Notes under the pieces: generated by a model | What the model was told of the DNA's origin: nothing | The model's input: only the letters and a program-made list of their open reading frames with translations | Databases searched by the model: none | Part shown: positions 1,220 to 18,185 of the stretch, one piece after another | How the letters are laid out: each line of letters begins with the position of its first letter | Position numbering within the stretch: the first letter of the stretch is position 1 | Source: a virus | DNA: 26,199 bases | IMG/VR virus record: IMGVR_UViG_3300008110_007408 | Coordinates: 1-26,199 of that record | Reading direction: 5' to 3' (one strand) | Made by a program: the position numbers and the translations under genes

Positions 1220-1241
1220 AGATATTCTTACTACGAAAACT

Positions 1242-1370: not shown

Positions 1371-1424
1371 AGTAATTTTATTTAGTCCTGATTCAAAATA
1401 TTATACTTTTTAATGCAATAAATG

Positions 1425-1931
1425 TCAACTTTTTATTGACCCAAAAGCTTGTTTTAATTTATACATCATTTCAGAAACGCTGTTAACAATGTCTAAATTA
1501 TCTTCTGACACATACTGTATTGTATCTTCATCATCCACAATACACAATGTTCTTAGTGCCCTTTTTGACTTTATATCTACTCCTAAATTTTCAGATAAAC
1601 TTAGCTTTGGCGATTGTATGTTGTCAGAAAACAACCACATCGTCGGTGTCATGTTAGTAGATATAGATTGCCAAGCTTTAGTAGAGAAGTCAGGATTCAC
1701 AGAACCTATTAGTAGTGTCACACCGTTTTTTGCAAGTTCTTGTGTTATTTTATTGAAGTTAAGTAATTCTTCAGGAAACACATAGGAAAAATCCTCTGGA
1801 TAAAAAACAACGATTTTCCATAATCCTTTTAGTGTAGTTTCAGTTACTAACTTTCTTCCGTTAGGAGAACTTTCATTTGGTTTAATTGCATTTACTGCAA
1901 ATGGTCCTAACTTTTCGCCTATGTTCTTCAT
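1425..1931 (-). CDS. Peroxiredoxin-like protein lacking the catalytic cysteine
   Basis: A 168-aa homologue of the AhpC encoded at 3320-3844. The N-termini match (MKNIGEKLGPFAV versus MKTIGDKVEAFAV), as do the strand after the active-site loop (VTLLIGSVNPDF versus AVLLIGSTDNEF) and the later RALRTLCIVDDE segment. The active-site loop reads PEDFSYVFPEE where peroxiredoxins have PKDFTFVCPTE, so the peroxidatic cysteine is phenylalanine at residue 52. The C-terminal resolving cysteine is also missing. It cannot act as a normal 2-Cys peroxidase. It may bind AhpC as a partner subunit, act as a chaperone-like protein, or be decaying. I chose ATG 1931 from the alignment with AhpC; a frame from 1961 is possible but adds residues absent from AhpC. 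The stop of the DUF2061 gene is 8 bases upstream. Confidence 0.82.
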   Translation of the reverse strand: MKNIGEKLGPFAVNAIKPNESSPNGRKLVTETTLKGLWKIVVFYPEDFSYVFPEELLNFNKITQELAKNGVTLLIGSVNPDFSTKAWQSISTNMTPTMWLFSDNIQSPKLSLSENLGVDIKSKRALRTLCIVDDEDTIQYVSEDNLDIVNSVSEMMYKLKQAFGSIKS

Positions 1932-1936
1932 TCTAG

Positions 1937-1944
1937 TATTTATT
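1937..1944 (-). promoter_or_regulatory. Late-promoter-like AATAAATA before peroxiredoxin-like gene
   Basis: Minus-strand AATAAATA ends exactly 5 bases before the ATG at 1931 and lies inside the 3' end of the upstream gene. The spacing matches the layout seen at 16405 and 16428. T4-like late promoters use TATAAATA at -10. The function here is inferred. Confidence 0.4.
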
Positions 1945-2122
1945 CTTGAACTTTGCCCCATTTAAGTTTGAGCCAAAGTCTTTCGTGAATGTAGTGAGCT
2001 AATGTCATCCAAATGTTAATAATAATAGCCCCCGCAAGACCAGTGTATATTCCTGTTATTATAGTTGCTGTAATGCGCCATGTTATGGCACGTATAATAG
2101 TTCTTTTGTGTGTTTCTGTCAT
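1940..2122 (-). CDS. DUF2061 small membrane protein
   Basis: A 60-aa protein with the DUF2061 pattern: an N-terminal basic segment RTIIRAITWRI, two hydrophobic stretches (about residues 17-38 and 40-48 of a predicted hairpin), and the diagnostic end HERLWLKLKWG. It is predicted to sit in the inner membrane. The biochemical role of this family is unknown. The ATG follows AGGAC with acceptable spacing, just after a strong terminator, so a promoter must lie at or within that short gap, or transcription reads through. It is followed closely by the peroxiredoxin-like gene. Confidence 0.85.
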   Translation of the reverse strand: MTETHKRTIIRAITWRITATIITGIYTGLAGAIIINIWMTLAHYIHERLWLKLKWGKVQE

Positions 2123-2134
2123 ATTTTTGTCCTA

Positions 2135-2156
2135 TAAAAAAGCCCCTTACGGGGCT
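2135..2156 (-). terminator. Intrinsic terminator after the AhpC-AhpD operon
   Basis: Minus-strand AGCCCC-GTAA-GGGGCT is a perfect 6-bp G+C-rich stem with a tetraloop, followed by six T residues. It lies 2 bases beyond the ahpD stop codon. Confidence 0.92.
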
Positions 2157-2158
2157 GA

Positions 2159-2677
2159 TTAATTACTTAACACTCTTGCTACGGACGTTATGACTGCTGC
2201 TATTCGTCCAATGTCACGTAATTGTTCTACCGTGTATCCTTCTTTCTTAAGTGTTTCATAATGTGACTTAACACAAAAATGGCACTTACCTACAATGCTT
2301 GCTGCTAAACTATATGCCTCAAATCTTGCTTTAGTTGTTCCACCATGACTTGCAATTGCATTCATACGTAGTTGTGGTGGCAAACCTTTGAGTTGCTCAT
2401 CATCAGCCATTTCAACAAATGGATACCAAATGTTGTTTTGTGCCATTAAACTTGCTGCTGTTAATGCAGCATCAGCTTCTTTACGATCTGCTAGTTGACT
2501 ATGAACCCAAGTCCATAGTTTTGAATTACCTGTTGCGAATGCTGCTGCAAGCGCAACTGCCTCAGCCTCTTCAACTGGCAATGTGCTACGTTTAATTACT
2601 GCATCAATATTTAGTTTAGTATCCTTAGCATATTCAGGAATACTTTGTTCTTTTAATGCGTCTACCCATACTGTCAT
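2159..2677 (-). CDS. ahpD: AhpD-type alkylhydroperoxidase
   Basis: A 172-aa protein of the AhpD family, which reduces peroxides through a CxxC pair and in mycobacteria recycles AhpC. The catalytic signature is intact: Glu in RFEAYS, then 12 residues on the first cysteine of GKCHFCVKSH, the second cysteine three further, and the His four beyond that. This is the spacing of M. tuberculosis AhpD (E118, C130, C133, H137). Length also fits. The start at 2677 is supported by AGGGGAAACAAA before ATG; the frame from 2704 runs into the upstream gene. Its ATG overlaps the cytochrome stop (ATGA), so it is translationally coupled. It is last in the operon and is followed by a terminator. A phage copy is unusual. 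Confidence 0.92.
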   Translation of the reverse strand: MTVWVDALKEQSIPEYAKDTKLNIDAVIKRSTLPVEEAEAVALAAAFATGNSKLWTWVHSQLADRKEADAALTAASLMAQNNIWYPFVEMADDEQLKGLPPQLRMNAIASHGGTTKARFEAYSLAASIVGKCHFCVKSHYETLKKEGYTVEQLRDIGRIAAVITSVARVLSN

Positions 2678-2961
2678 TTTGTTTCCCCTAAACTTAAAAT
2701 CCAATTTGTTAAAATTAATATTTCTGCATCAGTCAATGTAGGATGAGCAGGCATTTTACCTTTACCGTTTCTAATCACATTTTTAATGTGTTCAGAATCA
2801 TTGCGATTTTTTTCTGCTACTCGTACAAATGCAGGCGGATAGCTGATACCAATGTGCTGCACACTATGACATCCCAAACAGGCTCTCTGTTTGGCTAGTG
2901 CTTCTCCTTCGTTTGCCCAAGCAGAAATACTAAAAAACATCAACAAAATGCTATATTTCAT
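2674..2961 (-). CDS. Secreted small c-type cytochrome
   Basis: A 95-aa protein with a signal peptide (hydrophobic residues 4-16, likely cleavage after AWA). A single haem-binding CLGCH (Cys28, Cys31, His32) follows, and Met70 in GKMPAHPTLTD is the expected axial ligand. The C-terminal helix DAEILILTNWILSLG is typical of class I cytochrome c (c551/c552-like). The mature protein of about 79 residues would be exported by Sec and matured by the host Ccm system, acting as a periplasmic electron carrier. It overlaps its neighbours by ATGA on both sides, between the SGNH-like gene and ahpD, which suggests stoichiometric co-expression. Partner oxidases or reductases cannot be named from sequence. Confidence 0.9.
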   Translation of the reverse strand: MKYSILLMFFSISAWANEGEALAKQRACLGCHSVQHIGISYPPAFVRVAEKNRNDSEHIKNVIRNGKGKMPAHPTLTDAEILILTNWILSLGETK

Positions 2962-3332
2962 TTTGTTAATGCTCCCAATTGTCTATATCCTTTATATGTA
3001 GGGTGTACCTTATCCGCAGAAAGTTCTGGTATTATAATGAAAGTATCACCATAATGTCTAGCAATTTTCTTTACAATTTCTTGCTTTTCAGGTTTGATTG
3101 CAGGAACTATCCAAAACACTTGATCCGAATTTACAAAACTTCTTAAAGCAACTAATTCAATTTCGGTGTTAAGATTTTTAAAATCATTACTACCTAAACT
3201 AATGATTGTAGTTTTGGCGGGTCTGATTTTTTTAACATATGCATCATTCCAGTCTTTGCTGTTGATACCGCTTTGAGCATAAGCCACACATTCAGTGCGT
3301 ATTTGGCTTACGCCCTTTGCTATACTCTGCAT
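2958..3332 (-). CDS. SGNH/GDSL hydrolase-like protein, clipped N-terminus
   Basis: A 124-aa protein with most SGNH-hydrolase blocks: MQSIAKGV at the N-terminus matches GDSIAxGV with the Gly-Asp lost but the nucleophile Ser kept. SLGSND is block III (Gly/Asn), and DKVHPTYKGY is block V (Asp/His). The first beta strand, normally about seven residues before GDS, is absent because the ATG at 3332 lies within the 3' end of ahpC, overlapping it by 13 bases. A TTG at 3338 is a possible alternative start. Substrates of phage members are unknown; esterase action on glycans or lipids is the family's usual chemistry. It may be inactive without the full block I. The stop overlaps the cytochrome start as ATGA. 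Confidence 0.72.
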   Translation of the reverse strand: MQSIAKGVSQIRTECVAYAQSGINSKDWNDAYVKKIRPAKTTIISLGSNDFKNLNTEIELVALRSFVNSDQVFWIVPAIKPEKQEIVKKIARHYGDTFIIIPELSADKVHPTYKGYRQLGALTK

Positions 3333-3844
3333 GGGCAAAGTTCGCCAGTTTGCAAAGCGTCTAATACACGTAATGTTTCATCTGGGTTGCGACCAACATC
3401 TAGGTTGTTTACTGTAACATGTTGAATAACGTTATTTGGGTCAACGATAAATGTTGCACGTAGTGCTGCACCTGCAGGCTCATAGAAAATACCAAGTTGA
3501 TCTGCTAATGATAGTTCTCCACGTGCTACATCAGCAAAACTCCAGCTATTAGTTTTCTTCAAATCTTCATGTGCATTACGCCATGCTAATTTGCAAAACT
3601 CATTGTCTGTGCTACCGATTAACAAGACTGCATCACGGTCTGCGAAGTCATTATTTAATTTGTCGTATGCTACGATTTCAGTTGGGCATACGAATGTGAA
3701 ATCTTTTGGATAGTAAACGATTACTTTCCACTTGCCTTCAAAACTTTTTTCTGTGATTGTTTCAAATGCACCATCAACAGTCAATGCACTTGGCTTTACA
3801 CCTGTTACTGCAAATGCTTCTACTTTATCTCCGATAGTTTTCAT
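3320..3844 (-). CDS. ahpC: AhpC, 2-Cys peroxiredoxin
   Basis: A 174-aa typical peroxiredoxin that reduces hydrogen peroxide, organic peroxides and possibly peroxynitrite in the cytoplasm. The active-site loop PKDFTFVCPTE carries Thr50 and the peroxidatic Cys53. The conserved Arg in GAALRATFIV is present, and the C-terminal ELCPC supplies the resolving cysteine. The start is supported by AAAAGGAGACACAC before ATG at 3844. It heads the operon ahpC - SGNH-like - cytochrome c - ahpD. Because ahpD is in the same operon, AhpD rather than AhpF may be the reductant, as in mycobacteria; that is an inference. Confidence 0.94.
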   Translation of the reverse strand: MKTIGDKVEAFAVTGVKPSALTVDGAFETITEKSFEGKWKVIVYYPKDFTFVCPTEIVAYDKLNNDFADRDAVLLIGSTDNEFCKLAWRNAHEDLKKTNSWSFADVARGELSLADQLGIFYEPAGAALRATFIVDPNNVIQHVTVNNLDVGRNPDETLRVLDALQTGELCPCRV

Positions 3845-3864
3845 GTGTGTCTCCTTTTAAAAAA

Positions 3865-4209
3865 TTATCTTTGCGCCCTACAATTAGGGCATATAACAAT
3901 TAAGTTATCCTCTTCGTTATTGTGAGTATTATTGTCTTTATGGTCTACTACAAGTGGAATTTCTTTACCTGCATGTAAATCATTATAACATATCTCACAA
4001 TGTTTACCACGTTTTTCTATTAAGTACTTCTTAACATACTCTGGAACTTGACGCCATGCAGTAGTTGTTTCGTGTTCCTTCCATTCTTTAATTAAAAGGC
4101 GACTACGATATTCTGCTTGGCATTTGTTATTACAGTATTTGTTAGTAAAACTGTGGCCCTTTACAGGATTGTTTCTACCACAGTTTAGACAAGTAAAACA
4201 AGAATTCAT
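3865..4209 (-). CDS. HNH endonuclease, probably degenerate at its C-terminus
   Basis: A 114-aa HNH protein. The N-terminal half has two zinc-ribbon-like pairs (CLNC near residue 7 and CNNKC near 26). The second half has CEIC, then the first HNH histidine in VVDHKDNN, the asparagine in EEDNL, and the final CPNC. In this family the last motif is normally CPNCH followed by 15 or more residues. Here it is CPNCR and the protein stops four residues later, so the third H of the motif is lost. It is likely a dying mobile nuclease that sits just upstream of ahpC. The start has no clear Shine-Dalgarno. Confidence 0.8.
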   Translation of the reverse strand: MNSCFTCLNCGRNNPVKGHSFTNKYCNNKCQAEYRSRLLIKEWKEHETTTAWRQVPEYVKKYLIEKRGKHCEICYNDLHAGKEIPLVVDHKDNNTHNNEEDNLIVICPNCRAQR

Positions 4210-4314
4210 TTATAGACCATGTTGTAAAGCACTTTGTAATATTTACTGCTCTAGTGCTCCTATTATATACTACTATATTGCGTTTTCAATTTGTTTGGGT
4301 AAATTTGTTTTATA

Positions 4315-4321
4315 TTAAATA
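4315..4321 (+). promoter_or_regulatory. Late-promoter-like TTAAATA before the glycosyltransferase gene
   Basis: TTAAATA ends 6 bases upstream of the ATG at 4328 and no Shine-Dalgarno is present. It lies in a 118-base divergent gap whose remaining bases are A+T-rich and hold nothing else I can recognise. Confidence 0.4.
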
Positions 4322-4327
4322 TATTTT

Positions 4328-5203: not shown

Positions 5204-5217
5204 AAATAAGGAAATTG

Positions 5218-6189
5218 ATGCAAATACCATTTGATAAAATAGTGAGGTTTGGGCAACACACAATGCTAGAACATCCTCTTTTTTCTGTAAGTTGGATACT
5301 AGGAAGATTCTGCAATTACAAATGTAGTTATTGTTGGCCGTATGCAAACAGCGATACCCCTGATTATCAATCACTAGAAGTTTACAAACACGCAATAGAT
5401 CAAATCAAGTTACAAGCAAGGCAGAATAAATTTACTGATTTTCATTGGTCATTTAGTGGTGGTGAACCTACTGCATACAAACACTTACTTGAATTAATAA
5501 AACATTTAGAAGATGGTGTAACTCCATATCAAAGTATTCATATGACTACTAATTTAAGTCCTAGTAAGAAATGGTGGAGTAAATGGTGTAATAGTACTGA
5601 CCTTCTTCAACGTAAATCAATTACTGCTAGCTACCATAGTGAGTTTGCAAATGAAAATGAATTTGCAGAAAAATGTTTATACTTAATGGGCGAGAATGTA
5701 TATGTGACTATCAATCAAGTGATGGTGCCTAGTCAATTCTATGACTTATACGAACGATGCAAACGTTTTTACGATAAAGGAATAAATGTAACACTGAAGC
5801 CACAAAGTAATGAAAGTGCAAATGCAATTGTAGATGGTTATACGTCTGAGATGATAGAGATAATGCAAAAAGGATTTCCACAACAAGTAAATGAAGAAAA
5901 TCTTTATCAGATACGATTGTACGACGGTGATAACAATGAATACAAGTTTGATCAGGCCGAAAGATTTAATGCTTTCGGCTTTAACCAATTCACCAATTGG
6001 CATTGTAATAGCGGATATCAAAGTGTTATAATACGTGGCAATGAAGTTAAGCGTGGCTATAGTTGCAGTGACTTTAGATTAGGCACACTAGATAAAGGAT
6101 TTGGATTGTTTGGCAATCCTGTAACCTGTATTACAAACAGGTGTGTAAGTAGTGCAGACAGTAAGATACCAAAATGCAAATTGACCTAG
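5218..6189 (+). CDS. Radical SAM protein with C-terminal cysteine-rich tail
   Basis: A 323-aa radical SAM enzyme. The [4Fe-4S]-binding CNYKCSYC is at residues 32-39 (CxxxCxxC) and the SAM-contact FSGGEP at 79-84. The last 70 residues carry further cysteines (WHCN, YSCSD, VTCITNRC, PKCK) that could ligate an auxiliary Fe-S cluster, as in SPASM/twitch enzymes. It generates a 5'-deoxyadenosyl radical; the substrate is unknown. I start it at ATG 5218, preceded by AAGGAAATTG. Its stop overlaps the methyltransferase start by 16 bases, so the pair is coupled. The N-terminal layout resembles the protein at 12571-13518. Confidence 0.9.
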   Translation: MQIPFDKIVRFGQHTMLEHPLFSVSWILGRFCNYKCSYCWPYANSDTPDYQSLEVYKHAIDQIKLQARQNKFTDFHWSFSGGEPTAYKHLLELIKHLEDGVTPYQSIHMTTNLSPSKKWWSKWCNSTDLLQRKSITASYHSEFANENEFAEKCLYLMGENVYVTINQVMVPSQFYDLYERCKRFYDKGINVTLKPQSNESANAIVDGYTSEMIEIMQKGFPQQVNEENLYQIRLYDGDNNEYKFDQAERFNAFGFNQFTNWHCNSGYQSVIIRGNEVKRGYSCSDFRLGTLDKGFGLFGNPVTCITNRCVSSADSKIPKCKLT

Positions 6190-6767
6190 AACACATTATG
6201 TTTTGGATGGACGCTATAAGAAATAGTGAGGACCCAAAACGCACATTAGAAAGTTTTTGGAAGGGTCAGATTCGCAGCAAAGAATGGTTAATCAAAGAAC
6301 TAGGAGTTTTTATAGGTAAACCTGTCAGTATCGACATATTCGGGGGCTGGAACGGTGTTCTTGCTAGCATGTTGTTTCACGCACCCTATCCAGTAAAATA
6401 CATTCGTAGTATTGATATTGATCCTAAGTGTGAAGAAATAGCTAATACTATGAATAAGCTTGAACAGATGCAAGGTCGTTTTAAAGCTGTCACTGCAGAT
6501 ATGTGTAACTTAAGAAGTGATGCTGATGTTGCTATTAATACAAGTTGTGAACATATAAGCCAAGATCAGTACGAACAATGGTTAACATGTTTACCACACA
6601 ATAGTTTGTTAGTATTACAAAGTAATAACTATAATATTTACGAACACATACGAACTGCAGATAGCATTGAAGAATTTGTAGAACAAAGTAAGTTAAAAGT
6701 GTTTAAAGCTGTAAAACTTGACTTGCCTTTATACGAAAGATATATGATAATAGGTAAAGTATCCTAA
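6174..6767 (+). CDS. SAM-dependent methyltransferase-like protein
   Basis: A 197-aa protein with class I methyltransferase features: a glycine-rich motif I variant after a beta strand (VSIDIFGGWNGVLAS, residues 51-65), an acidic motif II at SIDIDP (79-84), a DMCNLR motif III-like segment near 109, and INTSCEHI near 121 in the motif IV position. The methyl acceptor is unknown. It overlaps the radical SAM gene upstream by 16 bases and probably works on the same substrate. Its stop codon shares four bases (CTAA) with the stop of the convergent gene on the other strand. Confidence 0.78.
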   Translation: MQIDLEHIMFWMDAIRNSEDPKRTLESFWKGQIRSKEWLIKELGVFIGKPVSIDIFGGWNGVLASMLFHAPYPVKYIRSIDIDPKCEEIANTMNKLEQMQGRFKAVTADMCNLRSDADVAINTSCEHISQDQYEQWLTCLPHNSLLVLQSNNYNIYEHIRTADSIEEFVEQSKLKVFKAVKLDLPLYERYMIIGKVS

Positions 6768-7807
6768 ACGCTTAATTTTGGATTATTAAGTCTATTATCA
6801 AAGTTACCACAGTTAGCAGCGCAAGTTGCAATTCTACCCTCACTATATTTTCTTCCGTCCCAACTCTGTTCTACTTTAGAAAAAAATTCATTATCTAGAA
6901 TATCATACCAGTTATTATTATATAAGTTTAAAAAATGTTTATATTCTTCCCATAGTTTGTCCCAACCATCCTGAATGTTTAACGGTTTTTTTGCATAAGA
7001 GTAGGATCCTAAAAAACAACAAGGAACCAAGTTTCCTGAACTATCAATATAAAGAGACTTATTAAATTTTGCAAAACAATCAATCTGCGTATCCTCACTT
7101 TTTTTCAACCACTCATCAACACGTATTAGTGGTTGAAACACAACTTCATGCTTAAAAGTTTCATCGGAAGGAGGTTCTATTAAAGTTCCATCAGAACCAA
7201 AAAACTGTCTGCCTAAGATAGCATCAGTAGCAAATCTATGACTACGTATAGTTTCAAACTTTTTAAATCCGAATTCAACTGATTTTTTTCTAGCCAAGTC
7301 TATTTGATGTTGATTATGTTTAAATGCAATGAATTTCCACGTAGCGTTGCCACCTGAATTTATAAAGGCACACGCATTTTCAATTACTTTGTTAAAATTT
7401 ACATTAACACGATAGATATGATTAGTATCCTCTAGACCATCAATTGCGAATATTACCTCACTTTTATCTCCTAATGCATCTGCCAATTGATTCCAAAATA
7501 CTGTGCTTTTCATTCCACCGTTTGTGCTAATTTTTATTAAAGCATTTGTTTTGGATCTAATTTTTTTAATCACATCAATAAAATTAGGAGCTGCACATGG
7601 GTCGCCCATAGACCCACTGAATAATATTTTATGTAATCCATTATAAACGTCATCAGGTATTCTGTCAAAAAAATCAGTATTTAAATAAGTTTCCAAAAAC
7701 CAACTATGATCGTTTCCATATAATTCACGTGTGCATTGGGGGCAATTAGCATTACAAATACTGCTATTTTCAATGTCAAGGTTAGTTATTTTGTCGTAGA
7801 ATTTCAT
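6764..7807 (-). CDS. Radical SAM/SPASM protein, paralogue 1
   Basis: A 347-aa radical SAM protein. CNANCPQC (Cys18, 22, 25) binds the SAM-cleaving cluster; GSMGDP replaces GGEP. The C-terminal third holds a SPASM-like set: IDCFAKF, LVPCCFLG after a strand-turn IDSSGN, and CAANCG near the end, enough for auxiliary clusters. It is a clear paralogue of the protein at 17080-18159, sharing FA-DGLEDT-H-YR and FKHN-HQ blocks. SPASM proteins usually modify peptides or proteins, but anaerobic sulphatase-maturase and sugar enzymes also exist, so the substrate is open. The start overlaps the end of the kinase-like gene by 26 bases, so coupling is likely. Confidence 0.9.
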   Translation of the reverse strand: MKFYDKITNLDIENSSICNANCPQCTRELYGNDHSWFLETYLNTDFFDRIPDDVYNGLHKILFSGSMGDPCAAPNFIDVIKKIRSKTNALIKISTNGGMKSTVFWNQLADALGDKSEVIFAIDGLEDTNHIYRVNVNFNKVIENACAFINSGGNATWKFIAFKHNQHQIDLARKKSVEFGFKKFETIRSHRFATDAILGRQFFGSDGTLIEPPSDETFKHEVVFQPLIRVDEWLKKSEDTQIDCFAKFNKSLYIDSSGNLVPCCFLGSYSYAKKPLNIQDGWDKLWEEYKHFLNLYNNNWYDILDNEFFSKVEQSWDGRKYSEGRIATCAANCGNFDNRLNNPKLSV

Positions 7808-8474
7808 GTTTTTTAACTATGTCTGCTATTAGTTCATTTGGATAATTAGACTTAAAACTTAGGAAGGCTAGTTTTTGCAGTTCTACAGAATTATAAGGTG
7901 TATGTAAATCTAGCTTTAAATGCTTTAAAAATTCTTCCATTTTTTCTTGACGTTCGGAACTTATTTGTATTAAAAAATCTTTAATTATTATAGATTCGTT
8001 CTTGTCAAAACAAAAAAACCAGTTAAAGGGTATTAATGTTTCATCATGTACAACCCAACTATTAGGGTGTAAACTAAATTTAAATATTCCTGCATCCCAC
8101 ATTTGTTCAATCCGTAGTAGCCATTGTTCTTTCCAATTCTGCAATACACCAAAACCTTGTGTGTAGAAGTCAGCTCCATGCCATTCAATAAAGATATGTC
8201 GTTTTATTTCATCTATATCAATAATTTTAAGTGTTGGTATATTATTTGTATTTGCTACACCATGGAATTTCATTTCACGAAGAAATCTTTCATACAATAA
8301 TTCTTCGGTCCATAATTCATTTTCTCTTATAAAAGAATGATAATTCTTATCCCTATTAAAACTCATGCATAAGGTTTTACTATCTGGGCTTATATACGGT
8401 GTGTAAACTAAATTAGCACGAACATTTTGACTACCGTCCCAATTATATAGGTAACTCCAATCACTAAAATTCAT
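7782..8474 (-). CDS. Conserved phage protein, possibly kinase-fold
   Basis: A 230-aa protein that I recognise only as a recurrent family in uncultured marine phages. Segments suggest a remote link to the phosphotransferase/protein-kinase fold: a hinge-like HIFIEWHG (93-100), FSLHPNSW (133-140) resembling the catalytic-loop DLHPGN of aminoglycoside-kinase-like enzymes, and NWFFCFD (151-157) in the place of the metal-binding DFD. The usual catalytic Asp before the HP is replaced, so activity is doubtful. ATG 8474 is chosen because GGAGAAAAAT precedes it. It shares a divergent promoter region with the gene at 8522 and is coupled to the radical SAM gene downstream. Confidence 0.6.
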   Translation of the reverse strand: MNFSDWSYLYNWDGSQNVRANLVYTPYISPDSKTLCMSFNRDKNYHSFIRENELWTEELLYERFLREMKFHGVANTNNIPTLKIIDIDEIKRHIFIEWHGADFYTQGFGVLQNWKEQWLLRIEQMWDAGIFKFSLHPNSWVVHDETLIPFNWFFCFDKNESIIIKDFLIQISSERQEKMEEFLKHLKLDLHTPYNSVELQKLAFLSFKSNYPNELIADIVKKHEILRQNN

Positions 8475-8489
8475 ATTTTTCTCCAAGAA

Positions 8490-8505
8490 TATTTAGCTAT
8501 AAATA
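8490..8505. promoter_or_regulatory. Back-to-back late promoters (CTAAATA minus, TATAAATA plus)
   Basis: On the plus strand TATAAATA (8498-8505) matches the T4 late -10 element exactly. It is followed by CCTAT and an AGGAG ribosome site before the ATG at 8522. On the minus strand GCTAAATA (8497-8490) immediately abuts it and is followed by GGAG and ATG 8474. The two adjoining elements drive the two divergent genes. Confidence 0.6.
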
Positions 8506-8521
8506 CCTATAGGAGAACAAA

Positions 8522-9304
8522 ATGATTCGTGGTATCGGGGGCATTCCTTATATTAATTTAGATGATCATATTGACGTAGCAGGTTTTAAAGAGTTGCACT
8601 ACAAAATTTGCAAAGGTATCGTATATGCGGAACATAAGAAAGAAGGCAATATGGTACAACCTGGTGGATTTGATGATGCATATCAAGTTCCATTTAAGCC
8701 AATATTCCAAGTGTTAGAAGAATATCATAATCTTCCTGAAGATCATGAGATTCGGGTTATTGGCAGAGAGATTGGGGAATATAATAATCGTGATAAATTT
8801 ATATTATTTCTCAAATTAGCAATGGGAGCTTATGATGCATATCAATTTGTTTTCCTTAAAACTGAAGCAGGTGGTTGGGATAGTCGTTTTGAAGAAAAAA
8901 GTTGGACTCCTGATGTTAAATACTTTCCTGAATTAAAACTTTGGTTAGAAAACTTAGTTACTTCAGGTGTGTTCAAACATTTGGGTCGCATTATTTTCTT
9001 TAAGGCTGAACACGATTGTTACATGCCATTGCATCGTGACTTAATTTACCCTGACGAAAATGATTATTTTGACCACCGGCACGAATTCATTCATATCAGA
9101 CCTAACTTAGATAAACCGTTTTATATTTGGGATCGTCAACTTGATGAGAAAGTTCTTGTTGAAAGTTGTGCTACATTTTTTAATGATCACGACTGGCACG
9201 CAGGTGGACGTACACACAAACAAACTTACAGTCTAAGAATCGATGGTATATTTACTGATGAGTTTCGTAAAAAAATTAAAATAGACCACCTAAATTATTA
9301 TTGA
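8522..9304 (+). CDS. Aspartyl/asparaginyl hydroxylase-like Fe(II)/2OG oxygenase
   Basis: A 260-aa protein with the double-stranded beta-helix signature of aspartyl/asparaginyl beta-hydroxylase-like oxygenases. The iron ligands are read as His171 and Asp173 (MPLHRDL) and distal His226 (NDHDWHAGG), with Arg239 (SLRIDG) as the probable 2-oxoglutarate anchor. The strand between holds FIHIRPNLDKPFYIWD. The expected reaction is O2-dependent hydroxylation of a side chain or small molecule. It is a single gene between two minus-strand blocks, with a canonical late promoter and ribosome site. Its 3' end overlaps the convergent radical SAM gene by 7 bases. Confidence 0.8.
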   Translation: MIRGIGGIPYINLDDHIDVAGFKELHYKICKGIVYAEHKKEGNMVQPGGFDDAYQVPFKPIFQVLEEYHNLPEDHEIRVIGREIGEYNNRDKFILFLKLAMGAYDAYQFVFLKTEAGGWDSRFEEKSWTPDVKYFPELKLWLENLVTSGVFKHLGRIIFFKAEHDCYMPLHRDLIYPDENDYFDHRHEFIHIRPNLDKPFYIWDRQLDEKVLVESCATFFNDHDWHAGGRTHKQTYSLRIDGIFTDEFRKKIKIDHLNYY

Positions 9305-10758: not shown

Positions 10759-11239
10759 ATTCCACAATTTGTAAACTAACTTTTGGTATAGAACTTAAGT
10801 TTGCACTACCATGTATTGCTAAAGGATCATCAAATTCAAATATATCTCCTGCTTTGTAATCTTTAATTAAAAAATCTTTATACATGAAAATGTGACCAGG
10901 TACGTAATCTTGATATGGAATCCACAATCTACGCACTGACCCACTATCATCTTTAAAAGTATCTTGATGCAACGGAAATGTATAGGTAGGATTTAATTTA
11001 ACGAACCACCAATTTAAATTTCCTGAATTATGTATAGGAAGATCGATGTTATGCAACCCTTCAAATTTACTGTAGAAATAAAACTTTGCCCCTGCAGACT
11101 CAGTTAAATTCCATTCATCATATTGTTTTTTACTTAATTTGTTTTCTTCTGCACCCGGTCTAACTTGACCATCAGTAGTAAGTATTATATCTAATATGTG
11201 TGGTTTAACCCAATCTTTATAATTCCCTAAGTGTCTCAT
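10751..11239 (-). CDS. Fe(II)/2OG oxygenase-like (cupin-fold) protein
   Basis: A 162-aa protein of oxygenase type: Phe-Pro-Leu-His91-Gln-Asp93 forms HxD, and AIHGSAN supplies His143. The intervening strands (RRLWIPYQDYVPGHIFMY and YKAGDIFEFDD) fit a jelly-roll. The arginine usually anchoring 2-oxoglutarate is not obvious near the C-terminus, so the co-substrate is uncertain. I start at ATG 11239: upstream frames from 11356 run into the oppositely oriented gene, and a TTAAATA element lies 8 bases upstream. It is coupled to the B12-type radical SAM gene downstream by an 8-base overlap. Confidence 0.7.
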   Translation of the reverse strand: MRHLGNYKDWVKPHILDIILTTDGQVRPGAEENKLSKKQYDEWNLTESAGAKFYFYSKFEGLHNIDLPIHNSGNLNWWFVKLNPTYTFPLHQDTFKDDSGSVRRLWIPYQDYVPGHIFMYKDFLIKDYKAGDIFEFDDPLAIHGSANLSSIPKVSLQIVEYV

Positions 11240-11241
11240 AA

Positions 11242-11254
11242 GATAAGTATTTAA
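11242..11254. promoter_or_regulatory. Overlapping divergent late-promoter-like elements
   Basis: The start codons of the two divergent genes (11239 minus, 11256 plus) are only 16 bases apart. Minus-strand TTAAATA (11254-11248) ends 8 bases before ATG 11239, and plus-strand GATAAGTA (11242-11249), a weaker match, ends 6 bases before ATG 11256. The two elements overlap. Neither gene has a Shine-Dalgarno. Confidence 0.45.
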
Positions 11255-11255
11255 C

Positions 11256-12644
11256 ATGTCTGACCGCATCAAAACTTTTATCAAAATTATAGAAGAACGA
11301 ACCGGTTCGCCTACATTTTGTGTATTACCTTGGTTACATGTTGCGACAAGACCCAATGGCGATGCTCGTTTGTGTTGTGGAGCTAATGCTAGTGGTGCTA
11401 GTACTGGTGATTACATGATCGGACTAGTTAAAAACAACACTGGACTGCCTGCCAACTTTGGTAAAGATTCTATTAAAGACGCATTCAACAATCAATACAT
11501 GCGTGATGTTCGTTTAAGTATGTTAAATGGACGTATTCCCGCTAGTTGCACTAAATGTTTTGAAGAAGAAAACAATGGTGTAGTAAGCAAAAGATTATGG
11601 GAACTTTATAACTGGGATAAAGAAAACATTAATTTTGATGATTTGATAAAGCAAACAAAAAAAGATGGGTTTATCACACCTATTATTCGTTACTTTGATT
11701 TACGTTTAGGCAATACATGCAATCTAAAATGTGTAATGTGTAGTCCACATGATAGTAGTAGGTGGATGCAAGATTATGAAAAACTGATTAGTAATACAAA
11801 AAGTGACGTAATAATTAAAAACATAATATTTAATCCTGAGAAGTTCAATAATAATTGGTATGATAATGAAGAATTTTGGAATGAAATATTTGAACAGATT
11901 CCTAATATAAAGCAATTATATTTTGCTGGTGGAGAACCACTAATGATCAAAGAACATTATAAATTTTTAGATGAGATCATTAAGCGTGGATATAACAAAC
12001 AAATTAGTTTAAGATACAACAGTAATGGTACTTATGTAGATGAAGATATTATAAAAGTTTGGAGTCAATTTAAAGAGGTAAAGTATGCTTTTAGTATAGA
12101 CGGTATATTTGAAAGAAATGAATATATACGTTATCCAACAGACTGGAATGATATAGAACGTAGTTTGGAACTATTAGATTGTACTCCTGATAACATTCAT
12201 GTTAGTATAGCATGTGCAGTACAGATTTTAAACATAAAACATATAATCGATTTTGCTAAATGGAAACTCAGCAAAAACTATAAGAAAATTAATAAGTACA
12301 AGATTGATGAGTATGAAGCAGGTGGAGGTTTAATAAATCTTCATTTAGTTTACATACCAACATTCTTATCAGCACGAATTCTTCCAAAAGAAGATAAGGC
12401 TGAAGTGAAACAGATGATATTAGATTTTAAGGATTGGTTATGGAAAAATTATACACAAGACGACAATTTTTGGCAGGTAAACCCATATGGATGGAAGCGA
12501 TGGCAGGCTATCTTAAGTTTCTTAGAAGCAGAAGATCACAGTAAGTTGTTACCTGATTTTACTGAATACATTAGAAATCTTGATTCGATTCGAGAAACAA
12601 ATTTTTCTCAGACCTTCCCAGAGCTTGCACATTTACTTTTGTAA
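11256..12644 (+). CDS. Twitch-type radical SAM protein, paralogue 1
   Basis: A 462-aa protein with auxiliary-cluster cysteines ahead of the radical SAM core: Cys22 (FCVLPWLHV), Cys40-Cys41 (ARLCC) and Cys98/Cys101 (SCTKC). The core follows with CNLKCVMC (155-162) and AGGEP (224-228). This inverted order is what phage 'twitch domain' radical SAM proteins show. It is a paralogue of 14419-15684. Reaction and substrate are unknown. The gene starts 16 bases from the divergent oxygenase gene without a Shine-Dalgarno. Its last 74 bases overlap the end of the convergent radical SAM gene. Confidence 0.9.
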   Translation: MSDRIKTFIKIIEERTGSPTFCVLPWLHVATRPNGDARLCCGANASGASTGDYMIGLVKNNTGLPANFGKDSIKDAFNNQYMRDVRLSMLNGRIPASCTKCFEEENNGVVSKRLWELYNWDKENINFDDLIKQTKKDGFITPIIRYFDLRLGNTCNLKCVMCSPHDSSRWMQDYEKLISNTKSDVIIKNIIFNPEKFNNNWYDNEEFWNEIFEQIPNIKQLYFAGGEPLMIKEHYKFLDEIIKRGYNKQISLRYNSNGTYVDEDIIKVWSQFKEVKYAFSIDGIFERNEYIRYPTDWNDIERSLELLDCTPDNIHVSIACAVQILNIKHIIDFAKWKLSKNYKKINKYKIDEYEAGGGLINLHLVYIPTFLSARILPKEDKAEVKQMILDFKDWLWKNYTQDDNFWQVNPYGWKRWQAILSFLEAEDHSKLLPDFTEYIRNLDSIRETNFSQTFPELAHLLL

Positions 12645-13518
12645 GAGGAACATCTGCTGCACAAGTACAATAATCTCTTGTGCATAATATAGGCGTATCT
12701 GGTAGTGTAAACGTGCCATTATAAATGTTCCCTAAACTTCCTCCTACTCTACAAGTAGCACGATGCACTTCACCGTCCCAGTTAATCATCAAGCTTTCTA
12801 ATCCAGCAGTGCAAGCCCAACCCTTAAATTTATTTTTATGAAATTTTATTATATCATTGGCATGCATCTTCTCACGATTGTCAATGATACAATTAGGAGC
12901 TACTGTAGCATCTTTACTTAATATCCAATCTAGATCATTTTGTTCATAACGCATATCATCAAATAGGTTGTGATCATCGTTAGTCCAACGAATTCTACGA
13001 ATTGCATAAGGAATATTATAACCATCTAATTTTCTTGTTGCACTTCTAACTTCAGTCATTTTGTCAGGGTGAGCCATAATGTTGATCATGCACGGTTTAC
13101 GCATACCGGGTTCTGCATCACATGATGCGTAATTTAAAATCGTATTTAATACTCTATCCCAATCTTTTTCAAAGTGTAAACTAAAAACTATATGATGTAC
13201 CGGTAATCTTAGATAGTATAATGATGTCCTAGTACCATTCGTAGTAACGTTAATCCAACTTTTGTCCCGTTTAACACAGTAACTAACTAATTCTTCAAAG
13301 TCAGGATGAACAGTTGGCTCTCCACCAGTGAAGCTTATTCGTGCATTATTAGGTAATTTGTCTACTGCTGCTTTAAGAATATTAATGTCAGTATGTGGAC
13401 TGAAATTATCATGAATGAGCGAAGGACAATACTCACAGTCGTAGTTACATCGTTTGCCTAAGTTCCATTCAACCTTCATCATATGTTGATGGTAATATGC
13501 ACTTGTAACTTTATACAT
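12571..13518 (-). CDS. Radical SAM protein with C-terminal auxiliary cysteines
   Basis: A 315-aa radical SAM enzyme: CNYDCEYC at Cys24, 28, 31; FTGGEPT at 63-69; VTTNGT following as in most family members. The C-terminal region has WACTAG, MINWDGEVH, RATCRVGG, LCTRDYCTCAAD, a SPASM-like pattern that could hold one or two clusters. It resembles the protein at 5218-6189 in N-terminal layout. The ATG overlaps the end of the unknown upstream gene and has AAGGGA nearby, so it is part of the minus-strand operon from 16405. Its substrate is unknown. The 3' end overlaps the opposite twitch gene by 74 bases. Confidence 0.9.
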   Translation of the reverse strand: MYKVTSAYYHQHMMKVEWNLGKRCNYDCEYCPSLIHDNFSPHTDINILKAAVDKLPNNARISFTGGEPTVHPDFEELVSYCVKRDKSWINVTTNGTRTSLYYLRLPVHHIVFSLHFEKDWDRVLNTILNYASCDAEPGMRKPCMINIMAHPDKMTEVRSATRKLDGYNIPYAIRRIRWTNDDHNLFDDMRYEQNDLDWILSKDATVAPNCIIDNREKMHANDIIKFHKNKFKGWACTAGLESLMINWDGEVHRATCRVGGSLGNIYNGTFTLPDTPILCTRDYCTCAADVPLTKVNVQALGRSEKNLFLESNQDF

Positions 13519-14422
13519 TTAAAATTCCCTTCGATCCTGAATCTCTGACATAAGTTTCATATAACATATCAGTATTTTTGAAACTAATTTCTAAAATATT
13601 TACTGTCTTATTAAAAAAATTTTTATTCCAAAGTAATTTGCATTGATGATTCGGAACATACCAATCGCTAGCTTTATTGTGAAAGTCTAACAAGATATCA
13701 GTAATAATTATTTGTCCCAATGGGTATTTTCCTAAACCCAAAGCGTTTAAATTATCTTTTGGAACGAGGTTTGATGTGTTTAAAGCCCAATTGTAAAATT
13801 TAATGTTATCAACTAAAGGTATTCCTGGTTCCACACAAAAAGACATTAGCGTTTCAGAATTTATTGTACTTTGAATTGACAAATCATCTAAAGTATCATT
13901 GTCTTTAGCAATGTTTATCCAATCTTTTCCTAATGTTCCATAACCTAAGTTTAATCTTCCCCATTTAATATCTGTATCTAAAAAAATTTTATATTCTTCT
14001 TTAATAGGAGCAAATTGTTCTTCTACTAAGTTTAAAGTTAAACTTGAATCGTATTCATGAAAGGGATTATTTAATTTGCTTTCTATTGCATGTATTAAAT
14101 CATTTATTCTATCCCAAACTTTATTCTCATAATTAGGTACAAAATGATTATGTAATCTGTTTAAATAATCTTGATTAACTTGTTTTGGTAATTCTGCATT
14201 AACTTCAATACAACATGTAGTTAGTTCATCAACCAAATCATCAAAAGACAGCAAGTTAAAGTTACATACTCGTATGTTGTTATTTTCAAGATGCATTTTT
14301 TGCCAAATATGCTGCACAGGGTTATCGTATAGATGGTAATGTAAATCAAATACGGTGTCTTGTTTCTTACATTTAATTACAGCAGTATTATAACCTATTT
14401 TATTGTGATAAAATTCTTTCAT
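13511..14422 (-). CDS. Conserved phage protein of unknown function
   Basis: A 303-aa protein with no catalytic motif that I can recognise. Segments such as YLNRLHNHF, RLNLGYGTLGKDW and LDTDIKWGR resemble a family I recall in marine phages, always as hypothetical. There is no signal peptide, membrane segment or cysteine motif. It lies in the middle of a four-gene coupled operon (QueC-like, twitch radical SAM, this gene, radical SAM) and overlaps both neighbours (ATGA at its start, eight bases at its end). It could be the substrate-binding partner, or a structural component of the modified target. That is conjecture from position only. Confidence 0.7.
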   Translation of the reverse strand: MKEFYHNKIGYNTAVIKCKKQDTVFDLHYHLYDNPVQHIWQKMHLENNNIRVCNFNLLSFDDLVDELTTCCIEVNAELPKQVNQDYLNRLHNHFVPNYENKVWDRINDLIHAIESKLNNPFHEYDSSLTLNLVEEQFAPIKEEYKIFLDTDIKWGRLNLGYGTLGKDWINIAKDNDTLDDLSIQSTINSETLMSFCVEPGIPLVDNIKFYNWALNTSNLVPKDNLNALGLGKYPLGQIIITDILLDFHNKASDWYVPNHQCKLLWNKNFFNKTVNILEISFKNTDMLYETYVRDSGSKGILNV

Positions 14423-15684
14423 ATATAATTTTTAAACTCAGGGGTCACTTCAACAAATTTTCTGCTATTTCTGCTATTATCAAGTCTACGATTAAATTCG
14501 ACAGTATCAGCCCATAAATGGTGTTCATCCTTAGCAAACATGAAGTTAATGATACCATTAATCTGCTCGTCTGTAATGCCTAATAATTTTGGATGTTCTT
14601 TAACTAATTTGTATTCAGGTAGTTCACGTTGCACTAGTCTTAGTCTATTATAAACAGTGTTTTTCAAATCAATTGGTAACGTTTGTACGCTTAATACATT
14701 CGGATACTTAACCATATTTGTATAAAATACGATACCTAAATCATCTAAAAAATACTTAATCATTTTGTCTAGTACTAACGCATTACTAACTTGCACTGCA
14801 ACTGCCCCAACTATTCTGCTTATGTTTGGTAATTCTTGTATTTGTTTAATATTATTAATTAGTTCGCTCCAACTTGCATTACCTCGTATGTATTCATAAC
14901 TATCCCCTATGCCGTCTATACTAACGTTTACTGCGACGGATTTAAATTTAGGCCAATATTCAAAAATGTTTCTATTGTTTTTACCCAACATACTTAAGTT
15001 TGTTGCATACTTAATTTCAATTTGATGACCATACGGAACAAGCATATCTAAAATCTTATAGTGTTGTGGATCCATCAATGGCTCACCACCTGCAAACTCT
15101 GCCCTGCGAAAATAAGGAATAACTTTAGAAAAACTATCCCACCAATTTAGGTTATCATCAAATTCTTTAAGATGCGGTTTATTAATCAGATTTAAATCAT
15201 GTATCTTTTTTGGAAGGAAATTATTTTCTTTAATATAAAATTCCTCAACTTCATTCCAATCATTCCAACTAGTACTATCCATTGGATGACACATTCTACA
15301 TTTTAAATTACAAAGGTTGTTTAATTTAATTTCCATCGTAGGAATTTGAAACGGCATTGTATAATCGTCGTTTAGCGAATCCAAAGCGTTAGGATATAAA
15401 TTTATTCTTGCTTCTGGAATAACACCCTTAATATGTCTTTGTCTTAAACTTTCTACACCCTGATCTTCTAAACTAAAACAAGGTTCACATTCTTTTGGTC
15501 TTTCATCATTCAATACTTGCCTACGAATTCTTAACATAGATTCGTTATTCCATATATCCTCTAGGCTATCTTTTTGAATAAATCCTATTGGATGACTACG
15601 ACAACAAACTTTAATTGCACCATCTTCTCTAGTCGCTAACCCTGTAAAGGGATGCATACAAAATGTTTTACTTTGACTGTTCAA
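14419..15684 (-). CDS. Twitch-type radical SAM protein, paralogue 2
   Basis: A 421-aa protein with the same architecture as 11256-12644: auxiliary cysteines Cys9 (KTFCMHPF), Cys27-28 (IKVCC) and Cys66/Cys69 (ECEPC) before the core CNLKCRMC (125-132) and AGGEP (198-202). A TTG start at 15684 is chosen because the first auxiliary cysteine lies upstream of the first in-frame ATG and a GAGAG element precedes the TTG. It overlaps the QueC-like stop by 17 bases. The reaction is unknown. SPASM/twitch enzymes commonly act on peptides or proteins, or build small cofactors. Confidence 0.88.
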   Translation of the reverse strand: MNSQSKTFCMHPFTGLATREDGAIKVCCRSHPIGFIQKDSLEDIWNNESMLRIRRQVLNDERPKECEPCFSLEDQGVESLRQRHIKGVIPEARINLYPNALDSLNDDYTMPFQIPTMEIKLNNLCNLKCRMCHPMDSTSWNDWNEVEEFYIKENNFLPKKIHDLNLINKPHLKEFDDNLNWWDSFSKVIPYFRRAEFAGGEPLMDPQHYKILDMLVPYGHQIEIKYATNLSMLGKNNRNIFEYWPKFKSVAVNVSIDGIGDSYEYIRGNASWSELINNIKQIQELPNISRIVGAVAVQVSNALVLDKMIKYFLDDLGIVFYTNMVKYPNVLSVQTLPIDLKNTVYNRLRLVQRELPEYKLVKEHPKLLGITDEQINGIINFMFAKDEHHLWADTVEFNRRLDNSRNSRKFVEVTPEFKNYI

Positions 15685-16405
15685 TCGCCCACTCTCTTTC
15701 TAAACACCAAAAGCATTTATTACATACTGGCACATAATCTCCTTGTCTATAATTTTTATAATTAATATCTTCAAATTTTGCTTCACAACTTCTTGTTAAT
15801 TTAAAAAGATCCATAATATCTAAATTTTTATATTGTTTTAGTATCCAATCTTTTTCTATGAATCTAAATGGGTGTATAGCGTATCCATTCATATGTTTCA
15901 TAATTCGTAAATGTTGATTATGTTCGTTAGGATCAACATCACGTTCCTGCATACCGTTAAAATTCACATTTTTAGGATTTCTAGTCACTGCATTATAATA
16001 TGCTTGAATTTTGTTTTGGTGGCAAACGTATTCGCTGTATGCTCTTATTTGAATATTGTCTCCGCTTACATTTTTATTATATTCATCTACTAAATTAGGA
16101 CCTGTATTCTCATATTCTAGTTCAGGAGCAATAAAATTAATATGTCTGTACCAATTAAAATAATTAAATTTTTTATATAACCATTCATACACTACTCTGC
16201 TATCATAAGATTGCCAAGGTTTTGTTTTCCAACATCTTACATGACTTACTATATGAATTGAAAGTTTTGGGTTAATCTCTGAGGCTATCTTACAGAGTAA
16301 GAAGGTCAGTAACGCACTGTCTGCGCCGCCGCTTAAACTTACTGCTATTCTTGACCATTTTTCGTCAAATGGAATTTTAACCCCATCTATATTATATTCA
16401 AACAT
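15668..16405 (-). CDS. QueC-like PP-loop ATPase
   Basis: A 245-aa PP-loop (N-type ATP pyrophosphatase) protein: SLSGGADSA at residues 23-31 is the adenylation loop. The C-terminus has the HPFRFIEKDWI segment and four zinc-type cysteines, Cys207 (RSCEA) and Cys228/231/234 in CNKCFWC followed by LER. That is the layout of QueC, which turns 7-carboxy-7-deazaguanine into preQ0 using ATP and ammonia. No QueD, QueE or FolE is in the window, so a role on another carboxylate is equally likely. I use ATG 16405 (an extended frame to 16447 would cross the divergent promoter). It heads the minus-strand four-gene operon. Confidence 0.8.
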   Translation of the reverse strand: MFEYNIDGVKIPFDEKWSRIAVSLSGGADSALLTFLLCKIASEINPKLSIHIVSHVRCWKTKPWQSYDSRVVYEWLYKKFNYFNWYRHINFIAPELEYENTGPNLVDEYNKNVSGDNIQIRAYSEYVCHQNKIQAYYNAVTRNPKNVNFNGMQERDVDPNEHNQHLRIMKHMNGYAIHPFRFIEKDWILKQYKNLDIMDLFKLTRSCEAKFEDINYKNYRQGDYVPVCNKCFWCLEREWAIEQSK

Positions 16406-16410
16406 AGTTT

Positions 16411-16422
16411 TATTTATAAATA
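16411..16422. promoter_or_regulatory. Perfect palindromic bidirectional late promoter
   Basis: TATTTATAAATA is its own reverse complement, so TTATAAATA reads in both directions. On each strand the element ends exactly 5 bases before an ATG (16428 plus, 16405 minus) and neither gene has a Shine-Dalgarno. This is the clearest case of the layout that recurs in the cluster. Confidence 0.55.
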
Positions 16423-16427
16423 TCGCT

Positions 16428-17102
16428 ATGCTGACAAAATTACACAAAATAGACTACATTGATTCCATTATAGCGCAGGTTAATGCAATGGATTTTGATT
16501 TTAAAAGAAAGACTTTAAATTACACTGACGGTAATATACTTTCGGGTGATTATAAAATTTTGCCCGAACTTGAAAATACTCCCATAGGTAATTTTTTAAC
16601 TGAATTAGGTGATATAGGTGAAGCAAGATTGCTAGTGCTAGAGTCTGGCGAAACCTATACGGCTCACACTGACCCAGATGATAGACTTCATTTAGTAATT
16701 TCAACTAACCCAGATTGCTATCTAATTGATTTAGATAAATTGCACATGTATCATTTACCCGTTGACGGACACATTTGGAACATGGATACTGGTGTAAGAC
16801 ACGTTGCATGCAATTTTGGAGGTAAGCCTAGAGTACATTTAAATGTCAGACATAAACTTCCTAAATTTAATAAACCTGGTTGGGATATTAAAGTTTCAGG
16901 TGGAAACTTTGATTGGAAGCAAGAATTATACGACGGTATTATGAGTCATATAAACTATAGTATTAAAAATAAAGTTATTACGGGTTTTGAAAAAGTGAAC
17001 GAAAGACAGGTTTATGTGAATTGTAGTATGGAAGAATATATGAATTTAACTACGATGATTGCAAAAAAGGGTTTTGTAGTTACAGGGAATCCCTTGATAT
17101 AA
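16428..17102 (+). CDS. Aspartyl/asparaginyl hydroxylase-like protein
   Basis: A 224-aa protein. His80-Thr-Asp82 (YTAHTDPDDRLHLVIS) and His125 (MDTGVRHVACNFG) make up the iron-binding triad, and Arg135 or Arg141 in KPRVHLNVRHKL is the likely 2-oxoglutarate contact. This is the pattern of aspartyl/asparaginyl beta-hydroxylase-like cupins. The C-terminal 80 residues are an extension of unknown role. It is divergent from the QueC-like gene through a palindromic promoter. Its 3' end overlaps the convergent SPASM gene by 23 bases. Substrate unknown. Confidence 0.8.
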   Translation: MLTKLHKIDYIDSIIAQVNAMDFDFKRKTLNYTDGNILSGDYKILPELENTPIGNFLTELGDIGEARLLVLESGETYTAHTDPDDRLHLVISTNPDCYLIDLDKLHMYHLPVDGHIWNMDTGVRHVACNFGGKPRVHLNVRHKLPKFNKPGWDIKVSGGNFDWKQELYDGIMSHINYSIKNKVITGFEKVNERQVYVNCSMEEYMNLTTMIAKKGFVVTGNPLI

Positions 17103-18159
17103 TTTGTTTTGTGGGGCTACTTACTTTTGCATTTTTTCCGCACACTCTTGCACAAGTAATAAGTTTATCTTCGTTCCAATATTTTTCCCAAATAGTTTGA
17201 TATTCATCTGCTTCTATAATTTCTTTGACACTTCTATTCGCAATATCTAACTTAGGTAATCCACCTAAACTTGCTACTAATTTATAATGCTGATTTAAAA
17301 TCTCTTGCTTAACAGGAATAGCATCTCTTTCATGACTTATAGGTACATAAGGTAAACTACTTAAATAACAACAGGGCATCAAATGCCCAAATGCATCAAG
17401 ATAAATTTCACGTTCTTTTTTAACAAAGCAATCAATGACAGTATTTTTAATTTGTTCTTTGTAAGTTTTTAAAATACTGCGGTCTATAAATTTTATTTCA
17501 CTATAATTGCTTGGCTCAAGGTAATGAGTAGTTTGTTTATTTTTATCCCAAACAGGAAATTTAGTTTCTAGTAAAAATCTGCTACTGTCTTTTGTTGTAA
17601 AAACTTCAAAACCCAAAGAAGCTGCTAATTCTCTAGCCTGTTCTACTTGATGTTCGTTGTGTTTGAATCTTATGAAAGCCCATTCAGCCTTTCCACCTGC
17701 TTGTATGAAAGCAGTAGCATTATTGATTATTTTATTAAAATCTGTTCCTATTCTATATAAATGATGAGTATCTTCTAAACCATCAAGTGCAAAAACAACT
17801 CCATGATCTTTTGGTAAAACGTTTACTAAATCTCTCCACCAGCTAGTATCACGCAAACTTCCATTAGTATGAATCCTAAGAACAATCGCAGGGTTTACGC
17901 TCTTAGTGTACTCGCACATTTTTGGTAAATCATTATTTAATATTGGATCACCAAAATTTCCACAAAAGTATATTTTGTCGATTTGTTTTAAAACTTGTTC
18001 GTTGATTGCGGTTTTATATAGATCAAATGACCAATTATTAATTTTTACCAAATCATTTTTAATACCGCCGTGGATATTTCTTATGCACATTGGGCAGCTA
18101 GCTTGACAGTTATTTGATATTTCTAGGTGTATGTTTTTTAATTCATCAAATTTAAACAT
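17080..18159 (-). CDS. Radical SAM/SPASM protein, paralogue 2
   Basis: A 359-aa radical SAM protein: CQASCPMC (Cys18, 22, 25), GNFGDP in place of GGEP, and C-terminal SPASM-like cysteines in VIDCFVKK, LMPCCYLS (after the strand-turn YLDAFG) and CARVCG. It shares FALDGLEDTHHLYR and FKHNEHQ with the paralogue at 6764-7807. It is a single minus-strand gene between two plus-strand ones. The ATG is preceded by CTAAATA at 7 bases and no Shine-Dalgarno. It probably carries out a related reaction to paralogue 1 on a different substrate. Confidence 0.9.
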   Translation of the reverse strand: MFKFDELKNIHLEISNNCQASCPMCIRNIHGGIKNDLVKINNWSFDLYKTAINEQVLKQIDKIYFCGNFGDPILNNDLPKMCEYTKSVNPAIVLRIHTNGSLRDTSWWRDLVNVLPKDHGVVFALDGLEDTHHLYRIGTDFNKIINNATAFIQAGGKAEWAFIRFKHNEHQVEQARELAASLGFEVFTTKDSSRFLLETKFPVWDKNKQTTHYLEPSNYSEIKFIDRSILKTYKEQIKNTVIDCFVKKEREIYLDAFGHLMPCCYLSSLPYVPISHERDAIPVKQEILNQHYKLVASLGGLPKLDIANRSVKEIIEADEYQTIWEKYWNEDKLITCARVCGKNAKVSSPTKQIISRDSL

Positions 18160-18166
18160 TGTGTGA

Positions 18167-18180
18167 TATTTAGTTAAATA
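18167..18180. promoter_or_regulatory. Adjoining divergent late-promoter-like elements
   Basis: Minus-strand CTAAATA (18173-18167) ends 7 bases before ATG 18159. Plus-strand TTAAATA (18174-18180) ends 5 bases before ATG 18186. The two elements are back to back in a 26-base gap, with no Shine-Dalgarno on either side. Confidence 0.45.
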
Positions 18181-18185
18181 TTTTG

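Follow-up and report, generated by a model that had tools for sequence, protein, structure and literature searches.

The window analyzed here, bases 1 to 26,199 of the 35,423-base IMG/VR record IMGVR_UViG_3300008110_007408, belongs to a group of large, T4-related aquatic phages that is uncultured. On its minus strand (1425-3844), two AhpC-like peroxiredoxins, a carboxymuconolactone decarboxylase-family protein, and a cytochrome c form an oxidative-stress-like cassette. Positions 5215-18159 form an island in which seven or more radical-SAM genes are accompanied by a QueC-like gene, an Asp/Asn hydroxylase-like gene, and further small genes; many of these are arranged in divergent pairs of the short-gap type described below. 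The gene set is common to five related records (G003-G006 and G012) and looks like a protein- or peptide-modification locus.

TAAATA sites were listed on both strands of the entire record with their distance to the next ATG, the gap being the number of bases between TAAATA and ATG. Eight sites in the whole record have a gap of 5-8, opening seven ORFs of 162-359 aa and one of 42 aa, and all eight belong to the nine starts for which the original prediction had proposed a TAAATA-type box 5-8 bases before the ATG and no Shine-Dalgarno (SD) sequence. The ninth start, 11256, fits less well, as it has TAAGTA, with one mismatch, at gap 6. The absence of an SD applies to all nine, with no AGGA, GGAG, or GAGG just upstream of any. 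The pair at 8474/8522, set apart as normal, does have SD sequences, but both starts also carry TAAATA, at gaps 15 and 16; start 741 on the minus strand carries it too, at gap 23, and in all three cases the SD lies between box and ATG. We therefore describe one box in two spacing classes:

1379-1384, minus strand: TAAATA late box, gap 8, ATG at 1370 (42-aa ORF)
1937-1942, minus strand: TAAATA late box, gap 5, ATG at 1931 (peroxiredoxin-like gene)
4316-4321, plus strand: TAAATA late box, gap 6, ATG at 4328; a box at gap 4-8 in 8 of 19 distinct homologous starts
11248-11253, minus strand: TAAATA late box, gap 8, ATG at 11239
11244-11249, plus strand: TAAGTA variant box, gap 6, ATG at 11256 (radical-SAM gene); a weak case
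16411-16416, minus strand: TAAATA late box, gap 5, ATG at 16405; half of the palindrome TATTTATAAATA
16417-16422, plus strand: TAAATA late box, gap 5, ATG at 16428 (Asp/Asn hydroxylase-like gene)
18167-18172, minus strand: TAAATA late box, gap 7, ATG at 18159 (radical-SAM gene)
18175-18180, plus strand: TAAATA late box, gap 5, ATG at 18186
8490-8495, minus strand: TAAATA box, leadered class, gap 15, SD TTGGAG, ATG at 8474
8500-8505, plus strand: TAAATA box, leadered class, gap 16, SD AGGAG, ATG at 8522
765-770, minus strand: TAAATA box, leadered class, gap 23, SD AAAGGAG, ATG at 741 (HNH protein)

Three divergent pairs of the window lie 16, 22, and 26 bp apart. Two full back-to-back boxes occupy each of the two wider gaps, and the 16-bp gap contains one full box and the TAAGTA variant, which is mildly enriched at gap 4-8 in the family (17 versus 5.3 expected). 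The 42-aa ORF (1240-1370, minus strand), with its gap-8 late box, has a terminator-like inverted repeat just downstream (about 1190-1215) and is possibly a small late gene.

The check initially proposed for this pattern, scoring TAAATA-N5-8-ATG against shuffled sequence, does not bear it out: the 8 occurrences compare with a mean of 6.9 in dinucleotide shuffles of the whole 35.4-kb record, so the count is not enriched, and a raw-count test alone would have rejected the pattern. Only the coincidence with gene starts, and not the raw number of motifs, is informative. With a naive gene caller, TAAATA at gap 5-8 precedes 7 of the 95 candidate start ATGs in the record versus 1 of the 1,369 other ATGs (about 4e-8 by our own simple binomial arithmetic), and the sole box among the latter opens the 42-aa ORF, which is under the caller's length cut. 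The raw count, equal to that of the shuffles, speaks for chance matches in A+T-rich intergenic DNA, but the sites lie at gene starts far beyond expectation in the window, in the family, and in an independent set, and T4, of similar GC, has none. The comparison of start ATGs with other ATGs rules chance out, and we regard what probability it retains as negligible.

The family set consisted of nine records (1.06 Mb), and a second, independent set consisted of 77 loci. Among ORFs of 80 aa or more that for the most part do not overlap, the in-frame ATGs within the first quarter were taken as candidate starts, with all other ATGs as the control; gene starts were thus called by a simple rule, and the records are fragments. 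In the nine records, TAAATA occurs at gap 4-8 before 80 starts (4.5 expected), with a peak at 5, followed by 4; it drops to a trough at gap 9-13 (6 versus 4.2 expected) and has a second mode at gap 14-30 (121 versus about 17 expected). SD sequences are found at 0 of the 80 short-gap starts and at 66 of the 121 starts at gap 14-30. The independent loci yield 92 short-gap occurrences versus 2.9 expected. TAAATA is the most enriched of all 4,096 hexamers at gap 4-8, above AGGAGA and AAGGAG, and neither the 14 other permutations of its letters nor the other single-base variants tested come near its enrichment at this gap. The two 5' bases of the T4 octamer are weakly conserved in the family, A being the commonest base just before TAAATA. 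In sequence, a leaderless gene is expected to have a -10 box that leaves zero to a few leader bases and to lack an SD, and the 80 starts at gap 4-8 show both features. Late genes with a T4-type promoter are expected to be preceded by the core TATAAATA or NATAAATA/NTAAATA, and this core, too, is present.

The boxes are unevenly distributed over gene contexts. In the two sets, 27% and 54% of divergent starts carry a short-gap box, versus 4.6% and 1.5% of the co-directional starts whose gap is below 20; T4 has 0/12. The start choice in this count favored a box or an SD, so that the percentages are slightly generous to both. At those short-gap sites that do lie at co-directional starts, readthrough mRNA with a longer leader would coexist. 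With short-gap boxes, two divergent genes could have back-to-back promoters within a common gap of 12-41 bp, and divergent gaps of this size with boxes on both sides occur in the window (22 and 26 bp), in its relatives, and once in the Pelagibacter phage HTVC008M (26 bp). At nine loci, divergent genes are 38-41 bp apart with two short-gap boxes between them, in one case as the inverted repeat CATGAAATATTTA-N13-TAAATATTTCATG; such gaps could also be operators.

Both arrangements are conserved among homologues, which also keep their protein starts. The gene at 16428 retains a box at gap 4-8 in 12 of 13 distinct homologous starts, and the leadered arrangement at 8474/8522 is conserved in a related locus. 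For the radical-SAM gene at 17080-18159, the viral collection contained 598 related stretches, of which 80 loci were retained. Homologues of this gene without a co-directional neighbor ahead have ATAAATA 4-7 bases before the ATG (nine loci), and those inside operons, among the same 80 loci, have no ATAAATA upstream. Late genes belong to the short-gap class in the long relatives, namely, the portal gene in G005 and the large terminase gene and two virion protein genes in G004.

The window is tied to G005, a 186-kb record, by NrdA (82-85%) and a PAAR protein (85%), and G005 encodes T4-type portal, protease, and capsid genes together with a gp55-type sigma. A gp55-family late sigma (phrog_234) is found in six long relatives with E values of 1e-22 to 1e-25; these proteins are divergent from T4 gp55, scoring 78-88 bits with the model that gives 233 for T4. 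No gp55 is present in the window's own record, which is partial. T4 late promoters are classical, and the sliding clamp gp45 and gp33 co-activate them. The clamp models phrog_223 and PF02916 have no match in the relatives, but they also miss PA5oct, 121Q, Atu_ph07, and, in part, HTVC008M; models that miss named jumbo T4-like phages are too narrow, and the clamp search is therefore uninformative.

T4 late promoters are located at -13 to -6 from the transcription start (PMC1524935), the box preceding the start by roughly one turn of the helix (PMC2988020). With the box at -13 to -6, transcription would start 6 bases past its final base, and a gap of 5, the commonest in the family, places +1 on the A of the ATG. 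A pyrimidine is usual at position -1 of a transcription start, and T or C precedes the ATG in 91% of the sites at gap 5 and in 75% of those at gap 4, versus 49% over all starts in the nine records. At the larger gaps, A stands at -3 in 78% of gap-7 and 62% of gap-8 sites (only 14 and 8 sites, respectively), which fits a start at that position and a 3-base leader. In 78 of 80 genes of the leadered class, the SD core begins 5 or more bases past the box (fewer than 5 in the other 2), which puts the SD inside the predicted transcript. We infer that the trough at gap 9-13 arises because leaders from such gaps would exceed the length that leaderless initiation tolerates yet leave no room for an SD.

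We propose that TAAATA would be a T4-type late promoter core, acting as the -10 box for a gp55-family sigma on the host RNA polymerase, without a -35 element. In the leadered arrangement, 14-30 bases would separate box and ATG, often with an SD in the leader, as in T4. In the short-gap arrangement, RNA polymerase would start on the A of the AUG or up to about three bases before it, and 70S ribosomes, which take leaderless mRNA (review, PMC9031893), would load directly on the 5'-end AUG of mRNAs that are essentially without a leader. A box 4-8 bases before the ATG and the lack of an SD imply that these mRNAs should begin at the start codon, unlike those from which T4 produces its late proteins. 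Leaderless late mRNAs, anticipated from the nine starts of the window, are thus supported as the best reading by the T4 geometry, the -1 pyrimidine, the SD positions, the gp55-type sigma, and the late genes; they remain a prediction, no RNA 5' ends being available. With the motif, its two-mode spacing, the lack of an SD in the short class, the conservation, the late structural genes, and the sigma genes of the relatives all directly observed, we consider a gp55-type late promoter programme with leaderless and leadered classes highly probable, even though no transcript has been mapped; its exact +1, its timing, and leaderless translation are inferred.

Without RNA data, it cannot be excluded that the boxes are late promoters but that the main transcripts start elsewhere, or that +1 is offset from that of T4, leaving ordinary leaders or an internal start codon; the divergence of the clade's gp55 from that of T4, noted above, is compatible with such an offset. 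We find this unlikely, since the gap peak of 5 reproduces the T4 geometry exactly, with a pyrimidine at -1 beside A, since the SD positions of the leadered genes are consistent with a start about 5-7 bases past the box, and since homologues keep their protein starts. A/U-rich leaders can aid ribosome binding, and the complete lack of SD sequences at the short-gap starts would also be expected if TAAATA near the ATG were an A/U-rich translation signal that replaces the SD on longer transcripts, rather than a promoter. However, the enrichment concerns one exact hexamer and not A/T richness, as all 14 letter permutations fall short. Moreover, TAAATA shows a second mode at gap 14-30, there accompanied by an SD, is concentrated at divergent starts and not within operons, and is the core of the T4 late promoter, which makes a translation signal quite unlikely.

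A further arrangement is known from the leaderless genes of Actinobacteria and Deinococcus-Thermus, in which a -10 box lies a few bases before the start codon and there is no SD (PMC3160421, PMC12340547), and host sigma-70 boxes adjoining the start codon might likewise drive leaderless genes here. Those bacterial genes, however, use the host box TANNNT, whereas the phage family uses the late box TAAATA. TANNNT is in fact depleted at gap 4-8 (456 versus 573 expected), and TATAAT reaches only 32 versus 19.7, while TAAATA reaches 171 versus 7.3. An enrichment of TANNNT or TATAAT just upstream of starts, as host sigma-70 leaderless genes would require, is not met, and this explanation is very improbable.

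The family and T4 (gp55, gp33, gp45; TATAAATA at -13 to -6) have the TAAATA core in common. As in T4, the box is found on portal, terminase, and virion genes, relatives have a gp55-type sigma, a leadered SD class exists, and no -35 signal is needed (none was sought). What T4 lacks is the large short-gap class without SD seen in the family. The expectation that this would be unusual among T4-like phages holds, with no such class in T4, Syn9, P-SSM2, KVP40, K566, phiM12, 121Q, PA5oct, and Phosso. The T4 sections have 0 sites versus 1.4 expected at gap 4-8 and 20 versus 2.9 at gap 21-30, and the short-gap counts of the jumbo phages are 1 versus 0.2 (Phosso), 3 versus 1.8 (PA5oct), and 1 versus 0.7 (121Q); those of Atu_ph07 (4 versus 1.5) and Xanthomonas phage X1 (2 versus 0.1) are both small. 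Atu_ph07, Phosso, PA5oct, and 121Q are the nearest named relatives of G004 and G005 (portal identity of 48-54%, trees) and have a gp55-type sigma and leadered TAAATA boxes as in the family, but little or no short-gap class.

The short-gap class reappears in HTVC008M (14 versus 0.9 expected, 11 at exactly 5), where the genes concerned include those annotated as gp13-type head-tail adaptor, tail completion, and baseplate proteins. Mosig has 7 versus 1.9 expected, 6 of them at gap 5, and Melnitz has 3 versus 0.7, all at gap 5, beside a large leadered class. HTVC008M and the pelagimyophages thus resemble the family in this class but form a separate clade: in the portal and terminase trees, HTVC008M, Mosig, and Melnitz fall on the T4/cyanophage side, and G004 and G005 fall with PA5oct, Phosso, Atu_ph07, and 121Q. 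Ribosomal protein S21, encoded in G003 (19669-19824) and HTVC008M (91228-91431) and also in PA5oct, Atu_ph07, and Phosso, was considered as a partner of the short-gap class and rejected as not discriminating, since it occurs with little or no such class and was not found in G004 and G005.

It is reasonably likely, in our estimation, that T4-superfamily phages have at least twice independently, in the aquatic jumbo group and in the pelagimyophages, moved gp55-type late promoters flush to start codons, and that host ribosomes make some of their late proteins, among them portal and terminase, from leaderless mRNAs. Both T4 late promoters and bacterial leaderless genes driven by a neighboring -10 box are known; their combination was not found in the literature searched. 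In the open literature searched, outside which most subscription journals lie, leaderless late genes have not been reported for T4-like phages, and the late genes of HTVC008M or the pelagimyophages are not described as leaderless. The paper on phage AR9 describes phage transcripts as often leaderless, yet the AR9 leaders have 26 bases or more (PMC5312081). In a survey of pelagimyophages, late promoters could not be predicted (PMC7029224), and the short-gap class offers a reason for the failure of the usual late-promoter search in these phages.

If correct, this would be a new T4-type expression strategy in which a late sigma programme feeds leaderless translation. Leaderless late mRNAs may sustain late phage translation when SD-led initiation is limiting, or they may suit hosts that tolerate leaderless mRNA. 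The short-gap box also supplies a rule by which start codons and operon heads could be called correctly across this large group of uncultured phages, and the prediction can be tested in the cultured pair HTVC008M and Pelagibacter HTCC1062.

Two minor features of the record deserve mention. The second peroxiredoxin has its best matches in Burkholderiales (70% identical to Cupriavidus), a weak hint, from sequence similarity, of a possible Burkholderiales host. In addition, nrdA is split into two ORFs near a single N (about 26180 in the window, the gene extending in the record up to 27015); it is intact, with 773 aa, in a near-identical record, and the break is probably an assembly error.
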